Assembly (NCBI GenBank): GCA_016932255.1
Contig: JAFGDE010000008.1
Location: 62,001 to 126,000 of the forward strand
From: Candidatus Saganbacteria bacterium
Lineage (GTDB): Bacteria > Margulisbacteria > WOR-1 > O2-12-FULL-45-9
Reading direction: 5' to 3'
Length of the DNA stretch: 64,000 bases
A model generated the notes under the pieces. The model was not told the DNA's origin and did not search any database. It was given only the letters and a program-made list of their open reading frames with translations. The number at the start of each line of letters is the position of its first letter. Position 1 is the stretch's first letter. Position numbers and translations under genes: made by a program. Below, piece by piece: positions 24,065 through 40,740 of the stretch.

Positions 24065-24183
24065 GAATATCAGAATACCAGATTATCAGAGCGTGATTAT
24101 CAGAATATCAGATGATCAGATTTTTCTGATATTCTGATTCTCTGACATTCTCGTTCTGGTATTCTGATTTTCTGATAATCTCC
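24062..24183. repeat. ATCAGAATACCAG inverted repeat array between lgt and the activase gene
   Basis: The left half repeats AATATCAGAATACCAGATTATCAG-like words. The right half carries the same words on the other strand, separated by a short A/T centre, so the array can form one ~55-bp imperfect hairpin. Each half contains a GAGCGTGA/GAACGAGA core. The right half encodes the last ~20 residues (SENQNTRTRMSENQNIRKI) of the activase. A near copy lies at 43744-43855. Confidence 0.8.
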
Positions 24184-27100
24184 CTTTAGCCTGGTGCAGG
24201 AACGCCTCAAGCCGCGTTTCTAGATTGACCCCTTCGTTGCCGTCGATCGCCAGGTCCAGCCAGGGGATATCATCATGCCTTTGCCGGACCTGTTTGCCCA
24301 GTGCCGCGACAACTGTGCCAGGCATGCAGGTAAAGGGCATGATATTGATAATGCCGGAAGCGCCTTTCTGGATGAAATCAACGGCCTTGCCGATGCTCAG
24401 GACCGCTTCGCCTTTGTAGGAATAGTGCAGATAAGGGGCGGCGTTCCTTAAGGTTTTCAGCATCGATGGCTCATGCAGGTCGCTGATCAAGCCCTTAAAA
24501 CCTTTGGTCAAACGATGCTCTTCCCACTTCTGGACCAGGTTCTGGACCACAGCGCGGACAAAGTGCTTGGGCAAACCGCGCATGTAGCTCTCATAAATAA
24601 AACCAAGGTTGGTGTAAAAGCCCCATTCTGTTATGGGCGCTACCCGGGCCACGCCGCCCAGTTTTTCAATGCGCCGCACGATCTGGCCGTTGCTGTCCGG
24701 ATTGCAGCGCAGGAATATCTCTCCGACAATGCCGATGACCGGCTTGTGACCGTTGGGCTTGAGCGAGATGGCGGCATAAGCGTCCCGGATATCCTTGATG
24801 ATAGTGAATATCTTGCCGCTGCCTGCTTCGGTCGCGTAACTAATCTGCTCAAGATAAAAATCATGCAGGGCCTGTGTTTCACCGGGATTCTTTTCATGGG
24901 CGCGTTTATTCAGGGTCAGTTTCTGCAGCAGGTCAACGGCCACGATGCCCCGCCAGGCGTTAAGCCTGAAGTTCAGGTCCAGGCCCATCATCGAACGGCT
25001 ATAGCCGTCCCTGGCGTCGGGCGAGATCAAGGGCACGTCGTCATAGCCCAGGCGTTCAAAGATCAGCTTGTGGGCTTTGTGATAATTGCCGAAACGGCAG
25101 GGGCCGGATGCGGTCGGCATGAAGAAAGCCGAGCGTTCCGGCTTGAAACCCGGTTCGGTCATTTTTTTGAGGAAGTCGCCGGCCGTGACGATGAAAGGAT
25201 GGCATTCCTTGCCTGAAGTATGCTGCCGGCCCAGCTCTAGCGTGCGGTCATCTGATGGCGGCAGGACCTCAGCTTCGCCGCCGCTTGACCTGATCGCCGC
25301 GGCCAGGGCCAGGGCATGGTCGGACATCCTGGGTAGATAAAGCACGCGTTTGCCTTTTCCTATTTTCGATTTTTTATTTTCTATTTTCAATTTTCTAGTT
25401 TTCGCGTTCTTCAGGCTGTCCAGGAAGGCTTCCAGCCGGGTGATCACTCCGGTGTCGCTGGAATGCTCGTCAACTTCCAGCTCCAGATAAGGCTTGTTCT
25501 TGATGGTATCCTGCATCAGATGAGAAATAAAGGAGTCCGGGCCGCAGCGGAAATTTGTGATGTGGACGGCAGAAAGGGTCTCATGCTCGTTGATGAAAGC
25601 GGCCGCGGCCAGCAGCTTTTGCCCGTAATTCCAGTACATGTTCGGATGCTCGTCAGCGATCTGCGCCCGGCTGATCGGCAGGTACTCAATAGGAATGGCC
25701 AGCACGCCCAATTCTTTTAACTTTTTGGGGATATCAAGATTAAGGGCCGGGTCAGCGCCGTTATAAGGCCGGCTGATGATCGCCAGGGCAGGCAGGTTCT
25801 CGGCCTTGATCCTGGCCAGGACCTGTTCGCCTTTCTCTTTAAGTTTTCTTTTGACCTTCAGATACTCTTTTTCCGCCTTTTTGGCCGCGTGCAAGGCTTG
25901 CTGTTTGGAACAACCTAAAGACTTTGCCAGGCTGATCAGCTGCTTGTTGAAATGTTTGCCGCCGCGCTGAGGTTCCAGGGCCGGGGAAAGTATCCTGGTC
26001 TTTTTATCGAACACTATACCGGCTTTGGCGAAATAAGGCAGGGCCTGAATAAAAGGACAGTTGAAAGATTCCGTGAAACCGTCATGGGCTTTTTCCATAT
26101 TGATCAAGCTGGGCAGGAAGATATGGTCAACACCTTTTACCATCAGGTCGAGGATATGGCCGTGCGCCAGGGTGATAGGGAAACAGGCTTCGGTCGCCGT
26201 GTTCTCTTTGGCGGCTTCGATTATCTTTGGGTTCGACTGGCTGGATAGGATAACGTCAAACCCCAGCGAGCTGAAAAAAGCGTTCCAGAACGGGAATCGC
26301 TCAAAAAAGAACAGAACGCGCGGTATGCCAATAGTAGGAACCGTGGCGTTCAGCCGCAGGTTCCCTTGCTTGAAGACCAATTCATTGCGTTCCTTGAATA
26401 GATCGATCTCCTGGATTCTGGGTTCTAGGTTCTGGGTTCTGGAATAACGTCGATTCTCCCACTTCTCGCAGCGGCCGCCATAAAAGAGCGGGTCTTCGCC
26501 CTCAAGATTGACCATGTTGATCTCGCAGAGATTCTCACAGCTTTTGCATTCGAAGGTCTTGATCTGATAGCCCAGCTGGCTGACCTGAAAACCCTTGAAA
26601 GCGCTCTTGTCCCAGCTGCGCTCCTTCATGGCGATGAGCGCGATGCCGATGGCGCCGGTCACTTCATGATGCGGCGGCACGGTGATCTCCTTGCCGGTGA
26701 TGTCGCCAAAGGCTTTGACCACCGCCTGGTTAAAGGCCACGCCGCCCTGGAAGAAAATCCTGCTGCCGACCGGCCGGGTCTCGACTACTTTGTTCAGGTA
26801 GTTCTTGACGATCGAACGGGCCAGGCCAGCGGCCAGCTCTGCTTTGGTCGCGCCTTTTTGCAGCTGGTTATTAAGCTCTGATTCAATGAAAACAGTACAG
26901 CGGTCGCCCAGCGGGGCAGGGCTTTCGGCCTGCGCGGCCAGCTCGGCGAATTCTTCTTTAATGTTGATATCGAGTTTTTCCGCCTGCTCTTCGAGGAACG
27001 ACCCGGTGCCCGCGGCGCAGACCTTGTTCATCGTGAAATTTACGACCGTGCCGCTTCTGACTGAAATGTATTTGGAATCCTGGCCGCCGATCTCGAAGAT

Positions 27101-27406
27101 CGTATCAACTCCAGGGTCATGGTCAATGGCTGCGGCAGCCTGGGCGGTGATCTCGTTCTTGATGATATCCGCGCCGACCAGCTCGCCGATCATGTAGCGG
27201 CCTGATCCTGTTGTGCCTACGCCGAGTATCTCAACTTGATCGCCGACTTGCTGAGATAACAGGCTGAGACACTGTTTGACTGCTTCGATCGGCCGGCCGC
27301 CGGTCATTAAATAAAGCTTGGCCAAGACCTGTTTGTCCTCTCTGAGCAGGACCAGGTTGGTACTGATCGAGCCGATATCAATGCCTAAGTAAGCCTTAGT
27401 TCTCAT
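24116..27406 (-). CDS. 2-hydroxyacyl-CoA dehydratase activase fused to activase-related domains
   Basis: A 1,096-aa protein. The N-terminal ~270 residues are a BadF/BcrA-type ATPase: LGIDIGSISTNLVLL (phosphate loop), EIGGQDSKYI and NKVCAAGTGSFLEEQ, whose Cys binds the interdimer [4Fe-4S] cluster. The rest resembles the DUF2229/activase-related region with CESCENLCEI-like cysteines, CFPITLAHGH, NFRCGPDSF and HPFIVTAGDF. These proteins drive ATP-dependent electron transfer to radical dehydratases or unknown partners. Its ATG overlaps the upstream activase stop (ATGAGAACTAA). Elsewhere both activase domains are normally in one ~1,400-aa chain. Three repeat-family insertions are present (26411, 25363, 24116). 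Confidence 0.85.
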   Translation of the reverse strand: MRTKAYLGIDIGSISTNLVLLREDKQVLAKLYLMTGGRPIEAVKQCLSLLSQQVGDQVEILGVGTTGSGRYMIGELVGADIIKNEITAQAAAAIDHDPGVDTIFEIGGQDSKYISVRSGTVVNFTMNKVCAAGTGSFLEEQAEKLDINIKEEFAELAAQAESPAPLGDRCTVFIESELNNQLQKGATKAELAAGLARSIVKNYLNKVVETRPVGSRIFFQGGVAFNQAVVKAFGDITGKEITVPPHHEVTGAIGIALIAMKERSWDKSAFKGFQVSQLGYQIKTFECKSCENLCEINMVNLEGEDPLFYGGRCEKWENRRYSRTQNLEPRIQEIDLFKERNELVFKQGNLRLNATVPTIGIPRVLFFFERFPFWNAFFSSLGFDVILSSQSNPKIIEAAKENTATEACFPITLAHGHILDLMVKGVDHIFLPSLINMEKAHDGFTESFNCPFIQALPYFAKAGIVFDKKTRILSPALEPQRGGKHFNKQLISLAKSLGCSKQQALHAAKKAEKEYLKVKRKLKEKGEQVLARIKAENLPALAIISRPYNGADPALNLDIPKKLKELGVLAIPIEYLPISRAQIADEHPNMYWNYGQKLLAAAAFINEHETLSAVHITNFRCGPDSFISHLMQDTIKNKPYLELEVDEHSSDTGVITRLEAFLDSLKNAKTRKLKIENKKSKIGKGKRVLYLPRMSDHALALAAAIRSSGGEAEVLPPSDDRTLELGRQHTSGKECHPFIVTAGDFLKKMTEPGFKPERSAFFMPTASGPCRFGNYHKAHKLIFERLGYDDVPLISPDARDGYSRSMMGLDLNFRLNAWRGIVAVDLLQKLTLNKRAHEKNPGETQALHDFYLEQISYATEAGSGKIFTIIKDIRDAYAAISLKPNGHKPVIGIVGEIFLRCNPDSNGQIVRRIEKLGGVARVAPITEWGFYTNLGFIYESYMRGLPKHFVRAVVQNLVQKWEEHRLTKGFKGLISDLHEPSMLKTLRNAAPYLHYSYKGEAVLSIGKAVDFIQKGASGIINIMPFTCMPGTVVAALGKQVRQRHDDIPWLDLAIDGNEGVNLETRLEAFLHQAKGRLSENQNTRTRMSENQNIRKI
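25363..25406. repeat. TTTTCTATTTTCAATTTTCTAG degenerate repeat inside the activase gene
   Basis: An A/T-rich array of TTTTC-A/T words with ~9-nt period encodes KLKIENKKSKIGKGK on the minus strand. It joins two domains and contrasts with the GC-rich coding sequence around it. Confidence 0.65.
26411..26442. repeat. GGTTCTAGGTTCTGGG repeat inside the activase gene
   Basis: Repeats of GGTTCTA/GGTTCTGG (7-8-nt period) encode RTQNLEPRIQE on the minus strand. The same family is found in mtaB and twice in rsmE. Confidence 0.75.
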
Positions 27407-28163
27407 TTTTAAGTGCGTGCAGTACCGCGCCGATAGCGCCCATGGCCGCGTGATGCTGCGGGATCAGCAGGCTGCCGGGATCCAGCTCGAGCACCTGTTC
27501 AAAAGCCGAGACCATACCGGCATTGGCCGCCACGCCGCCCTGAAAAGCGATGCGCTGGTGCCATTTTTTGCCTTTGCCAACGTTGCTGACAAAATTTCTG
27601 GCTACGGCAAGGCATAAACCTGCCACGATCTCATATTCCGGCGTGCCTTTCTGCTGGAGATGGATCATATCTGATTTGGCAAAGACCGTGCAGCGGCCGG
27701 CGATCCTGGGCGGATGTTTCGATCTGAGCGCCAGACGGGCGAACTCCTCGATGGTCAACCCGAGCCGGGCGGCCTGCTGGTCAAGGAACGAGCCTGTGCC
27801 TGCGGCGCAGACATTGTTGGTGGCAAAATCGATCAAACTGCCCTGTTTAAGAAAGATCAGCTTGGAATCCTCGCCGCCGATCTCGATCACGCTGCTGACC
27901 TCAGGATATAAGGCTGCGGTGGCAGTGGCCTGGGCCACGATCTCATTGACGAATTTTCCTTTGATGAGCTTGGCGCCGGAGCCCGTGGTCGCGGTCCAGG
28001 CGAGGCTGTAGCGGGAGGTGATATCCTTGATCAGCGACTCGGCGGTGGTTTGCGGTCGGCCGCGACTGCGTTGGTAGTGCGTTTCAATGACGCTCTTATT
28101 CTTATCGATCAGAGCGGTCTTAACGCTGATCGAGCCGATATCAATGCCTAAATAGTGCTGCAT
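27396..28163 (-). CDS. 2-hydroxyacyl-CoA dehydratase activase, single-domain
   Basis: A ~255-aa BadF/BcrA-type ATPase with LGIDIGSISVKTALID, EIGGEDSKLIFL, NNVCAAGTGSFLDQQ and FQGGVAANAGM. The track begins at GTG 28181. ATG 28163 is chosen because the family starts at the LGIDIGS strand, and the extra codons lie in a short repeat (CAGGCACAGGCTCAGG). It overlaps the next gene by 11 nt in a different frame. Together the two ORFs equal one large two-headed activase, so this looks like a split gene whose halves are still translationally coupled. Confidence 0.85.
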   Translation of the reverse strand: MQHYLGIDIGSISVKTALIDKNKSVIETHYQRSRGRPQTTAESLIKDITSRYSLAWTATTGSGAKLIKGKFVNEIVAQATATAALYPEVSSVIEIGGEDSKLIFLKQGSLIDFATNNVCAAGTGSFLDQQAARLGLTIEEFARLALRSKHPPRIAGRCTVFAKSDMIHLQQKGTPEYEIVAGLCLAVARNFVSNVGKGKKWHQRIAFQGGVAANAGMVSAFEQVLELDPGSLLIPQHHAAMGAIGAVLHALKNEN

Positions 28164-32584: not shown

Positions 32585-32614
32585 TTTCCAAAGCTTTTAA
32601 AATTGATGTATAAT
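32585..32614 (+). promoter_or_regulatory. Leaderless promoter of the helicase-nuclease gene
   Basis: TTTCCA (32585-32590), 18-bp spacer, TATAAT (32609-32614). The -10 ends 6 nt before ATG 32621, which makes that ATG rather than 32603 the start. Confidence 0.6.
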
Positions 32615-32620
32615 ACTGGC

Positions 32621-35600
32621 ATGCCTGCTATTAAGACCCACGCTGATGTGAAAGATATCCTTAAGGGCCTAAACCCGGAACAGATAAAAGCGGTCACTCA
32701 CGGCCAGGGGCCGATGCTGGCCATTGCCGGTGCAGGGACAGGCAAGACCACTGTCATTATCCGCCGCATCGCTTATCTAATAGCCACGAAAAAGGCCAAG
32801 CCCGGCGAGATCCTGGCGTTGACCTTTACTGACAAAGCGGCCGAAGAAATGGAAGCCAGGGTAGATAAACTGGTGCCTTACGGCTATATCGACGTTTCCC
32901 TGGCCACGTTCCACGCTTTCGGCGACAGGGTCCTGCGTGACCATTGCCTTGAACTGGGGCTTGATCCTGATTACCGGGTCATGTCGCGGCCGGAACAGCT
33001 GGTCTTTTTCCGCGAGCATTTGTTCGATCTGCCGCTTAAATACTATAAAACGCTGTCCGACCCGACCAAGCATCTGGACGCCCTGATCAACGTGATCAGC
33101 CGGGCGCAGGACGAGAATATATCGCCTGAGGCTTTTCTCAAGTGGGCGAAGAAACTTAAGGTAGCTGGAAGCCAGGAATCAGTAGCCAGAGAGGAAAAAA
33201 GAAGGTACCTGGAAATAGCCGCGGTCTATCAGAAATATCAGCAGTTAAAGGCGGAAAAGGGGTTCATTGACTTTGGCGACCAGGTCAGCCTGGCCTTGAA
33301 ATTGTTCCGGGAAAGACCGGCCGTGCTCAAGGAATTCCAGCAGCGCTATAAATACATCCTGGTCGATGAATTCCAGGATACCAATCTGGCCCAGTTCGAA
33401 TTGTTAAAGCTTTTAGCCGGAAAAAAAGCCAACTTGACGGTTGTAGGAGACGATGACCAGTCGATCTACAAGTTCCGCGGGGCGGCCATTTCCAATATCC
33501 TGGGCTTTAAGAAGGTCTACAAAAAGACCAAAACAATCGTCTTGACAAAGAATTACCGCTCGTCGCAGATCATCCTGGATACGGCCCACCGCCTGATCAA
33601 ACACAATGACCCTGACCGGCTTGAGGTGAGAGCCGGGATCGATAAAAGGCTGGTTTCTTGTGTGGAACCTGCGACTGAACCCCGATGTGGGAATCGGGGC
33701 AGGCGTCGCGGTTCCACGGGTCGCGGACGGGAGGAACCGACGCGTTCAGCGGCGGGAGGGACCCGTCCGCAGCACCTGCATTTTGACCGCTTGAGCTCAG
33801 AGGCCGATTGGGTAGCTCAAACTATCAAGAGCAAACACGAGAAGGGTTATAAGTACAGCGACTTTGCTATTCTGGTGCGGGCCAACGCTGACGCGGAGAT
33901 CTTCAGGCAATCGCTGAACATGCAGAACATCCCGCACCAGTTCTTTGGCGGGGCAGGACTTTACCAGTATCCAGAGGTCCAGCTGGCCCTGTCGTTCCTC
34001 AAGTCAGTCGGCGACCTGGCCGATTCGCCGGCCCTGTTCCAGTTGTCCGTTTCCCCGGTCTACCAGCTGGACCCGCTGGACCTGCAGAAGATGAACACCT
34101 TTGCCCAAAGGCGCAATCTGACCCTGCATCATGTCTTCAGCCATCTGGAAGATAAGACCGAGGACTTTTCCGTTCTGAGCGACCTGAAAAAGAAGTCCCG
34201 GTCAACGGTGCGCAGGATCATGGATGATATAGAGCACTATCTGGCTTTTGCCAGGGAAAAGACCACAGGAGAGGTCCTCCACCGATTTCTTAAGCGTTCA
34301 GGCTATCTTGAGAAGTTGATGAAGGACGAGAGCGAGGAGAACGACCGGCGCTTGCAGAACCTGGCGCGATTCTTTGATATCCTGCATCAGTTCAAGTCTG
34401 TGGCAGAACTTGACCGGGTGTCTGAGTTCATCAAATATATCAATGTCATGCGCCAGGCAGGGGATAACCCTGAATCAGTGGCTTTTGATCCGGACCTTGA
34501 CGCGGTCCAGGTCATGACCGTGCACAAGGCTAAGGGGCTGGAGTTCCGCGAGGTCTTCCTGGTCTCACTGGTAGCGGAAAAATTTCCCTCACGCAGACGG
34601 AAGGACCCGATCGAACTGCCGCCAGGCCTGATCAAGGAAGAACTGCCTTCAGGCGATTTTCATCTTCAGGAAGAACGGCGGCTGTTCTATGTCGGCATGA
34701 CCCGGGCAAAAGAAGCGCTTTATTTGACCTCATCGGCTGACCTCGGCGGCAAGCGCCAGCGCAAGGTCTCCCAGTTCGTGCTTGAAGCCCTGGACACGCT
34801 CAAGGCCGATATCAGCATGATCAAACGTTCGGCCAAGGAGCAGATCGAGCTGTTCGCGCCGATCGAAGTGATCCTGCCCGCGGCGAAAAAGATCAGATCA
34901 GGTGAGCCGATCTATTTGAGCGCTTCCCAGATAGAGGACTATCTGCTGTGTCCTTTGAAATATAAATATGTCAGTGTTCTGCGCGTGCCGCTCTTGCCCA
35001 ATCACCAGATCATTTATGGCGTGGCCATGCACCAGGCTGCCCAGGCATTGAGCTCGGCCAGGAAGAACAAGAAGAAGTTCACTGAAAAGCAATTGATCGA
35101 GACCTTGCTGCGCAACTGGTCGTCAGAAGGGTTCATCTCCCGCGAACATGAGGAACAGCGTTTGAGCCAGGCTAAAAAGGCCCTGAAACGCTTCTTTCGC
35201 GATGAGCAGAGGTCCAAACGTAGGATAAAATATGTTGAAGAGGAGTTTTCCGTGCCCAAAGGAGACATCATTGTCCGCGGCCGCTGGGACAGGGTAGAGG
35301 AATTGGGCGGGAAAACTTATATCACTGATTTCAAGACCTCAGAGATCAGGGAGCAAGAAGACGCTGACAAGCGGGCCAAAGAGAGCAAACAGCTTAATCT
35401 CTATGCCGCGGTCTGGCAGGAGAAGTTCAAGGACCTGCCGTATCGCGTTGAGCTTTACTTTATGGACAGCGGCCTGGTCGGCTCAGTCGAAAAGGACCAG
35501 GCAGACGTGCTGAAGACCTGGCAGATGGTCAAAGATGTTGCCCAAGGCATCCGTTCCGGCAAGTTCACGGCCAAACCTAATTACCGCTCATGTTCCTATT

Positions 35601-35638
35601 GCGCTTATAATGAGATCTGTCCGGCGGCAGCGGTTTGA
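32621..35638 (+). CDS. UvrD/Rep-family helicase fused to Fe-S PD-(D/E)XK nuclease
   Basis: A ~1,005-aa protein. Superfamily 1A helicase motifs run in order: AGAGTGKTT (I), LTFTDKAAEEM (Ia), VDEFQDTN (II), DDDQSIYKFRGA (III), KNYRSSQ (IV), VMTVHKAKGLEF (V) and YVGMTRAKEAL (VI). The C-terminal ~270 residues are a RecB/Cas4-like nuclease with YITDFKTS and QLNLYA. Four cysteines (LLCPLKYKY, CSYCAYNEIC) should hold a [4Fe-4S] cluster, as in AddB and AdnB. It likely processes DNA ends for repair. A ~110-nt palindromic insertion at 33662-33770 lies in frame between motif IV and LVRAN, in a normally variable loop. Confidence 0.9.
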   Translation: MPAIKTHADVKDILKGLNPEQIKAVTHGQGPMLAIAGAGTGKTTVIIRRIAYLIATKKAKPGEILALTFTDKAAEEMEARVDKLVPYGYIDVSLATFHAFGDRVLRDHCLELGLDPDYRVMSRPEQLVFFREHLFDLPLKYYKTLSDPTKHLDALINVISRAQDENISPEAFLKWAKKLKVAGSQESVAREEKRRYLEIAAVYQKYQQLKAEKGFIDFGDQVSLALKLFRERPAVLKEFQQRYKYILVDEFQDTNLAQFELLKLLAGKKANLTVVGDDDQSIYKFRGAAISNILGFKKVYKKTKTIVLTKNYRSSQIILDTAHRLIKHNDPDRLEVRAGIDKRLVSCVEPATEPRCGNRGRRRGSTGRGREEPTRSAAGGTRPQHLHFDRLSSEADWVAQTIKSKHEKGYKYSDFAILVRANADAEIFRQSLNMQNIPHQFFGGAGLYQYPEVQLALSFLKSVGDLADSPALFQLSVSPVYQLDPLDLQKMNTFAQRRNLTLHHVFSHLEDKTEDFSVLSDLKKKSRSTVRRIMDDIEHYLAFAREKTTGEVLHRFLKRSGYLEKLMKDESEENDRRLQNLARFFDILHQFKSVAELDRVSEFIKYINVMRQAGDNPESVAFDPDLDAVQVMTVHKAKGLEFREVFLVSLVAEKFPSRRRKDPIELPPGLIKEELPSGDFHLQEERRLFYVGMTRAKEALYLTSSADLGGKRQRKVSQFVLEALDTLKADISMIKRSAKEQIELFAPIEVILPAAKKIRSGEPIYLSASQIEDYLLCPLKYKYVSVLRVPLLPNHQIIYGVAMHQAAQALSSARKNKKKFTEKQLIETLLRNWSSEGFISREHEEQRLSQAKKALKRFFRDEQRSKRRIKYVEEEFSVPKGDIIVRGRWDRVEELGGKTYITDFKTSEIREQEDADKRAKESKQLNLYAAVWQEKFKDLPYRVELYFMDSGLVGSVEKDQADVLKTWQMVKDVAQGIRSGKFTAKPNYRSCSYCAYNEICPAAAV
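33161..33190. repeat. GTAGCTGGAAGCCAGGAATCAG-type degenerate repeat inside the helicase gene
   Basis: A short array of AGCTGGA/AGCCAGGA/AGTAGCCAGA words encodes VAGSQESVARE in frame. It resembles the other degenerate arrays but is a separate word family. Confidence 0.45.
33662..33770. repeat. Paired palindromic insertion inside the helicase gene
   Basis: Element A (33662-33717): GTGGAACC-GCGAC pairs with GTCGC-GGTTCCAC and encloses CCCCGAT/ATCGGGG. Element B (33723-33770): GCGGACGGG pairs with CCCGTCCGC. Together they encode a Gly/Arg/Pro-rich stretch (CGNRGRRRGSTGRGREE) unlike helicase sequence. Confidence 0.75.
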
Positions 35639-39995: not shown

Positions 39996-40740
39996 AGCTG
40001 ATCATGGACAGGATGGCTAAACCGGCAGTCTCGGTCCTGAGGATGCGCTGTCCCAGGCTGATCGGCGTGAACCCGTTCTTTTTGGCCTGGTCGACTTCAG
40101 CTTGCGAGAAACCGCCTTCCGGGCCGATGATGACCATGATGGAGGGGTTTTTGGGTTCTGGGTTCTGGGTATTGGGTTCTAGGTTCTGGGCCTGCCTGCC
40201 GGTCAGGCAGGTTCTAGGTCCTAGGATTTTTTTAAGAGTAAGTTCCTTCTCTAATTCCCAGGGGATGAGGCAGAGATCAAAGTCTTTTGATATTGTGAGA
40301 ACGCCCTCGAACTTGGTCAGCGGATCGATCTGCGGCACGGTGGCCCGGCCGGACTGCTCGGCTGCCTCTTTGGCGATCTTGTGCCAGCGGTCAAGCTTCT
40401 CCCCCTTAGCCACGGTCCGCTCGGAAAGCACCGGGATGATACGGGCTGCGCCCAGTTCAGTGCATTTCTGGACAATTAAGTCCATCTTCCTGCCTTTGGG
40501 CAGACATTGGGCGATAGTTATTTGGGTTCTAGGTTCTGGGTTCTGGGCCCTGGACCCGGTGATCTCACAAGTAACTTTATCTTTGCTCATCGAAGATATC
40601 TTTGCCTGATAGGCCGTTCCGCTGCCGTCGAGCAGCTTAAGCTCAGCGCCGGGCTTTAAGCGCAGCACATGGATGATCTGATGCGCGTCTGAGCCGGTTA
40701 TTTCCGGTATTTGTTCCTTGCTGACAAAGAACCTATGCAT
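39979..40740 (-). CDS. rsmE: 16S rRNA m3U1498 methyltransferase RsmE
   Basis: A SPOUT-class methyltransferase acting on U1498 of 16S rRNA. Conserved segments are [34 protein letters not shown] and [16 protein letters not shown] (knot). ATG 40740 ([13 protein letters not shown]) is preferred to the track start at 40812. It overlaps the dnaJ stop by 8 nt. Two repeat-family insertions are in frame, QNPEPRTQ (40522-40555) and a longer one at 40152-40225 just before the SPOUT core. Confidence 0.93.
40152..40225. repeat. GGTTCT array with nested CCTGCCTG palindrome inside rsmE
   Basis: GGTTCTGGGTTCTGGGTATTGGG... is interrupted by CCTGCCTGCCGGTCAGGCAGG, a palindrome embedded in the array, after which GGTTCTAGGTCCTAGG resumes. 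The palindrome appears to have inserted into an existing array. Confidence 0.8.
40522..40555. repeat. GGTTCT-type repeat inside rsmE (second copy)
   Basis: GGGTTCTAGGTTCTGGGTTCTGGGCCCTGG encodes [10 protein letters not shown] at the junction between the N-terminal PUA-like domain and the SPOUT domain. Confidence 0.75.

Follow-up and report, generated by a model that had tools for sequence, protein, structure and literature searches.

The helicase-nuclease gene located at positions 32603 to 35638 (+ strand) of the window, the stretch of 64,000 nucleotides analysed here (G000:C18:62001-126000), very probably harbors a head-to-head pair of mobile REP-like hairpin copies inserted in frame in a tolerant linker. 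The corresponding repeat family was probably spread through the genome by an IS200-type transposase, the argument for mobility being drawn entirely from sequence comparison.

The gene encodes a 1011-residue UvrD-type helicase with a PD-(D/E)XK nuclease, in which the Pfam domains UvrD-helicase, UvrD_C, and PDDEXK_1 were detected. The insert (33662-33770) encodes approximately 36 residues (353-388 of the protein) located within the UvrD_C domain, past the NYRS block (motif IV region) and ahead of motif V, and neither hairpin interrupts the reading frame, in agreement with the in-frame location proposed by the initial annotation. The same annotation regarded the encoded peptide as foreign to the helicase family, a claim that conservation of these residues in helicase orthologues would have contradicted. 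Most relatives lack them: the linker was short in 19 of 24, and all 24 were found to be empty or differently filled. Solved relatives (UvrD and PcrA) could be aligned on either side of the insert, and none through it. In the AlphaFold model of the helicase, residues 284-393 taken together were of low confidence, a quality insufficient to demonstrate loop exposure. Most likely, the inserted peptide plays no role in helicase function.

The two hairpins and the palindrome nested in the first one were confirmed, and the region encompassing them (33655-33778) folded far beyond shuffled sequences, none of which was as stable (z = -5.44 for DNA and -4.27 for RNA). A search of Rfam with the hairpin region returned nothing above threshold. 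The first hairpin (33662-33717, + strand), in the forward (F) orientation, displays the core of the family with an enlarged loop (GGAACC-T-GCGAC-TGAAC...GTCGC-GGTTCC) and encodes VEPATEPRCGNRGRRRGST. Its arms, GTGGAACC-T-GCGAC and GTCGC-GGTTCCAC, pair except for a single T of the first arm, which had been written as a break in the initial annotation. This hairpin matched the R1 model with 41.5 bits (E 4.4e-11, window search), folded on its own with a z of -5.1, and has a 52-nt copy displaying 98% identity at G000:C10:16487. The nested palindrome, CCCCGAT-GTGGGA-ATCGGGG (33680-33699, + strand), occupies its loop, and the same nesting is present in the C10 copy and in a copy at C22:49750.

The second hairpin (33723-33770, + strand) did not match the family model over its full length; a weak match (5.3 bits) was limited to its loop core. 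It retains GGAACC (33733-33738) and the loop GTTCA of the reverse (R) orientation (33744-33748) in the position that the R partner occupies in other doublets. The right outer arm has been lost, and the outer stem, GCGGACGGG/CCCGTCCGC, is new. Variants of the R type with GACGC/GCGTC stems occur elsewhere (L005, L006, and L008). Judged by these features, the second hairpin is probably a degenerate R partner of the first, with a newly formed outer stem. The hairpins, initially described as independent, are most likely a single head-to-head doublet, the usual arrangement of the family.

A genome search for the palindromes, suggested in the initial annotation, showed the first hairpin to belong to a repeat dispersed throughout the genome in about 100 copies. 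Alignment of the copies defined the 28-nt core GGAACC-T-GCGAC-TRAAC-GTCGC-GGTTCC, in which one T is left unpaired. In the genome under study (G000; 1.67 Mb, 31 contigs), a covariance model detected 106 copies at E<=1 and 94 at E<=0.01. Conservation over 71 simple copies coincided exactly with the core (model positions 3-30); their flanks were flat and contained neither a GTAG or CGTC tag nor any other conserved position. A conserved guide tetranucleotide or a fixed element end, which the chemistry of IS200/IS605 and RAYT transposases predicts, was not seen in the aligned copies, and the guide sequence may vary from copy to copy. Some copies contain a second palindrome in the loop, which is either CCTGCCTGCCGGCAGGCAGG or, like that of the first hairpin, CCCCGAT..ATCGGGG. 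Stop codons are missing from four or five of the six core frames, and the encoded peptides are hydrophilic.

Among 69 clusters of copies, the order F then R was found 36 times and the order R then F was never found. Doublets are about 55-116 nt long; the gaps separating their units of 32 nt are short (-2 to 19 nt) and unconserved in sequence. The outer arms differ between copies, yet they remain paired. An earlier count of covariation was biased because the seeds had been chosen for pairing; a set of copies chosen only on their left half provided a fairer test. In this set, pairing at outer positions 3, 5, and 7 and at inner positions 1, 2, 4, and 5 exceeded that of every permutation. Thus, pairing is maintained by paired changes. 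No description of the same family was found in the open-licence literature.

Interior in-frame copies were found in G000 at 10 sites in eight conserved genes: miaB (two sites), leuS (two sites), hemW, mutS, glyS, a glpD-like gene, a CoA-activase gene, and the helicase gene. This count leaves aside short or weak model hits (e.g. C18:50897 and C22:126413), which are possibly due to chance. The cleanest insertion is that of glyS, whose product contains 17 additional residues where nine relatives share a short turn; the hemW insertion resembles this case. The copy in mutS adds almost no net length in comparison to E. coli and close relatives, indicating that simple insertion does not fit every copy. 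The CoA-activase copy is the second in-frame copy of the window, a single hairpin (26335-26366, - strand; R1 39.7 bits) encoding the peptide QGNLRLNATVP in an open reading frame of the CoA-enzyme activase family (24119-27463, - strand; BcrAD_BadFG and DUF2229). The window also contains a heptamer-like AGAACCC/AGAACCT repeat on the - strand (26416-26441, 40149-40188, and 40527-40545; nine matches for 0.4 expected), one block of which is in frame in the CoA-activase open reading frame, close to the hairpin copy.

Two Y1_Tnp genes were detected in G000, on contigs C16 and C14. The C16 TnpA gene (L034 1836-2213) lies between a pheT-like gene and a mutS gene and is flanked in inverted orientation, by one F copy immediately upstream and by two R copies immediately downstream. 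Its product harbors an HVH motif and a YIKEQ tyrosine motif, passed the cut-off of the NCBIfam IS200 model NF033573 (67.3 bits, cut-off 55), and failed that of the RAYT model NF047646 (44.8 bits, cut-off 80). The best solved relatives are small transposases, including the ISHp608 TnpA. Comparison of 31 TnpA loci showed that copies of the family adjoin C16-like TnpAs in eight other genomes (G008, G010, G011, G012, G016, G017, G018, and G021), in some of them with a copy close on one side only. Inverted flanking like that of the C16 gene was seen for the TnpAs of G008, G010, G011, G012, and G021, among others. No copy of the family adjoined TnpAs of other lineages at these 31 loci, except for a separate doublet past the neighbouring gene at C14. 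A TnpA of the same subfamily as C16 in G002 has a weak family match nearby. Three draft genomes (G013, G014, and G028) contain many copies, and no TnpA was found in them. The second TnpA of G000, also IS200-type (L035 1350-1790; G000:C14:37851-38279), is flanked by another hairpin, CCCCACA..TGTGGGG. The latter occurs at nine places in G000, against none for the reversed control pattern. Each of the eight genomes in which it was searched contains it, frequently in closely spaced pairs.

These observations suggest how the family may have spread. The TnpA, an HUH tyrosine transposase, would recognise bulged hairpins on single-stranded DNA and move the doublet. Genic insertions would survive where the frame stays open and the linker tolerates the added length. 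Compensatory change would keep the hairpins paired, either because mobility is selected for or because the hairpin serves as a template for correction.

In the class, comprising mostly draft genomes, the family was present in 29 of 31 genomes, with 1 to 103 copies each. In the rest of the phylum, two of 26 genomes contained one weak match each. Two sister species of one genus were compared by aligning 10 filled sites of G012 with G010. A single element was common to both, an in-frame doublet in a bioF-like gene, and nine sites differed. The element was missing from G010 at all nine, and a different palindrome was present at the same place in three of them (L324 versus L300, L328 versus L304, and L325 versus L318). 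In the linker of a ygiQ-like gene, G012 harbors a doublet of the family and G010 another palindrome, CCCCTCTCCATTCCCAATGGAGAGGGG, both in frame (the names bioF and ygiQ were read from translations). From the alignments, it looks as if one palindrome replaces another at such sites. Target-site duplications, proposed in the initial annotation as a signature of mobility, were not evident by eye at the sites compared.

The same linkers are occupied in several genera. The helicase linker contains an F-R doublet in G021, an R copy in G009, an F copy in G028, a diverged pair in G007, and an unrelated palindrome in G004; the G021 copy is nearer to a copy located elsewhere in G000 than to the G000 helicase copy. 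The mutS linker contains a copy of the family in G000, a doublet in G007, and an in-frame CCCCACA hairpin in G009. In leuS of G028, the inner stem has been replaced by another palindrome. The doublets of leuS and miaB have their phase and spacer length in common across genera. Parsimony changes were as numerous as carriers (six for six in helicase, four for four in miaB, and three for three at each of the leuS sites), on trees that were built without the insert, that have weak forks, and in which losses were counted along with gains. Finally, the insert of the glpD-like gene (L118 and L246) displays 97% identity between G000 and G025, which belongs to another family of the class, versus 71% for the gene. 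The G025 insert has the G000 glpD-like copy as its best match, well above any other G000 doublet, and contains an extra 21-nt palindromic stretch in its loop that keeps the frame.

Comparison with known systems supported in part the initial proposal of a protein-coding palindromic element resembling those of Rickettsia, in another lineage. The resemblance holds in kind, since in-frame, peptide-coding palindromic repeats are dispersed in unrelated genes of one lineage in both cases (PMC10969869), and additional in-frame copies were found here. However, the family is probably not that of the Rickettsia palindromic elements (RPEs): its core comprises 28 nt versus about 150 bp (PMC10969869), its host is different, and it is linked to a transposase subfamily. 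The CGTC end reported for the RPEs of R. conorii (PMC3733652) is absent from the core. The nearest kind is that of the REPs and REPINs associated with HUH transposases. GTAG and CGTC REPs were reported in 2013 inside genes, including those for UvrD/REP helicases, recB, uvrA, and tRNA synthetases; one of the recB elements lies at roughly the same position in two species (PMC3733652). The present family shares with them short, high-copy hairpins, head-to-head dimers, and location in repair and tRNA-synthetase genes, but differs by the absence of an end tag, by an IS200-type rather than a RAYT transposase, by its lineage and class-wide distribution, and by the filling of the same linker of several genes by the same or different palindromes across genera. 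REPINs are inverted REP doublets, with spacing peaks of 71 or 110 bp in P. fluorescens SBW25 (PMC3116915). As in REPIN/RAYT systems, the inverted doublet is the probable mobile unit and copies flank an HUH tyrosine transposase gene; in contrast, the gaps are irregular (-2 to 19 nt), many copies are genic, and the TnpA falls below the RAYT cut-off (PMC3116915). The IS200-type TnpA and the hairpin with an unpaired base are also found in IS200/IS605 systems (PMC6006769), from which the family differs by inverted flanking hairpins, by about 100 dispersed copies, as in a REPtron, and by guide tetranucleotides that were not found. Paired palindromes within protein-coding genes, for which repeat conversion was proposed, have also been described in the mitochondria of Nematomorpha, but these are long perfect repeats without a dispersed family or a transposase (PMC6649704). 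The absence of a tag and the IS200-type TnpA therefore led us to keep the family apart from RPEs, GTAG/CGTC REPs, and REPINs.

Intragenic REPs are known already. What is unusual here is that the same linkers have been occupied repeatedly and that one insert is more highly conserved than the gene around it. REP-like hairpins invade essential proteins beyond Rickettsia, Opitutus, and the other species listed in 2013, in this case across a whole bacterial class and in association with an IS200-type transposase. The same linkers carry replicate natural insertions in different genera and offer a testbed for the movement of palindromes, the upkeep of pairing in genes, and the lengthening of proteins.

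Two explanations dispense with mobility by a transposase. A function of the hairpins as RNA or DNA structures (acting on mRNA stability, translational pausing, or blocking of nucleases) that selection maintains in these genes, with no mobility, is unlikely. The strong compensatory variation, the high conservation of the glpD-like insert relative to its gene, and the in-frame doublet common to the sister species are in favor of such a role. However, the same family is found at approximately 70 unrelated places, mostly outside conserved genes, orthologous sites are empty in most relatives, sister species differ by the presence or absence of elements, and different palindromes occupy the same place. 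Local origin of each palindrome through replicative template switching (quasipalindrome mutagenesis), with no transposase, is very unlikely, since both the association with one TnpA subfamily and a conserved 28-nt core whose loop positions are invariant from one family of the class to another need a common copying source; outer arms that vary and retain pairing, inner stems replaceable by other palindromes, as in leuS of G028, and the lack of evident target-site duplications are nevertheless as expected from this process.

Within the reading of the family as mobile hairpin doublets, the history of shared in-frame copies may be understood in two ways. Each gene might have received one ancient insertion that was inherited or transferred and mostly lost, instead of repeated insertions, a refinement that we consider rather doubtful. 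The wide margin by which the G000 glpD-like copy is the best match of the G025 insert and the similarity of the leuS and miaB doublets across genera argue for it. It is opposed by changes as numerous as carriers in helicase, miaB, and leuS (several forks being weak), by the varied content of the helicase linker (an F-R doublet, a lone R or F copy, or unrelated palindromes), and by the closer relationship of the G021 copy to a non-helicase copy of G000. Some shared cases, such as the glpD-like insert, are, as judged from sequence identity, one insertion by descent or transfer. In this class, the linkers of leuS, miaB, mutS, ygiQ-like, and helicase genes might be recurrent docking sites, where different families of palindromes would settle at, or displace one another from, the same codons, and resident hairpins might keep their sequence better than the host gene does, as in the glpD-like case. 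This proposal covers the elements with a TRAAC loop, the CCCCACA..TGTGGGG elements of the second IS200-type TnpA, and others. If true, docking sites would suggest that palindromes within coding sequence undergo site-directed replacement or are maintained with the hairpin as template.

A separate observation concerns the leuS and miaB linkers of relatives in which hairpins are absent (L251, L254, L255, L256, and others). These linkers often contain in-frame low-complexity repeats, such as TTACCCGTTACCCG or GAAATCCTAAATTCTAAA.
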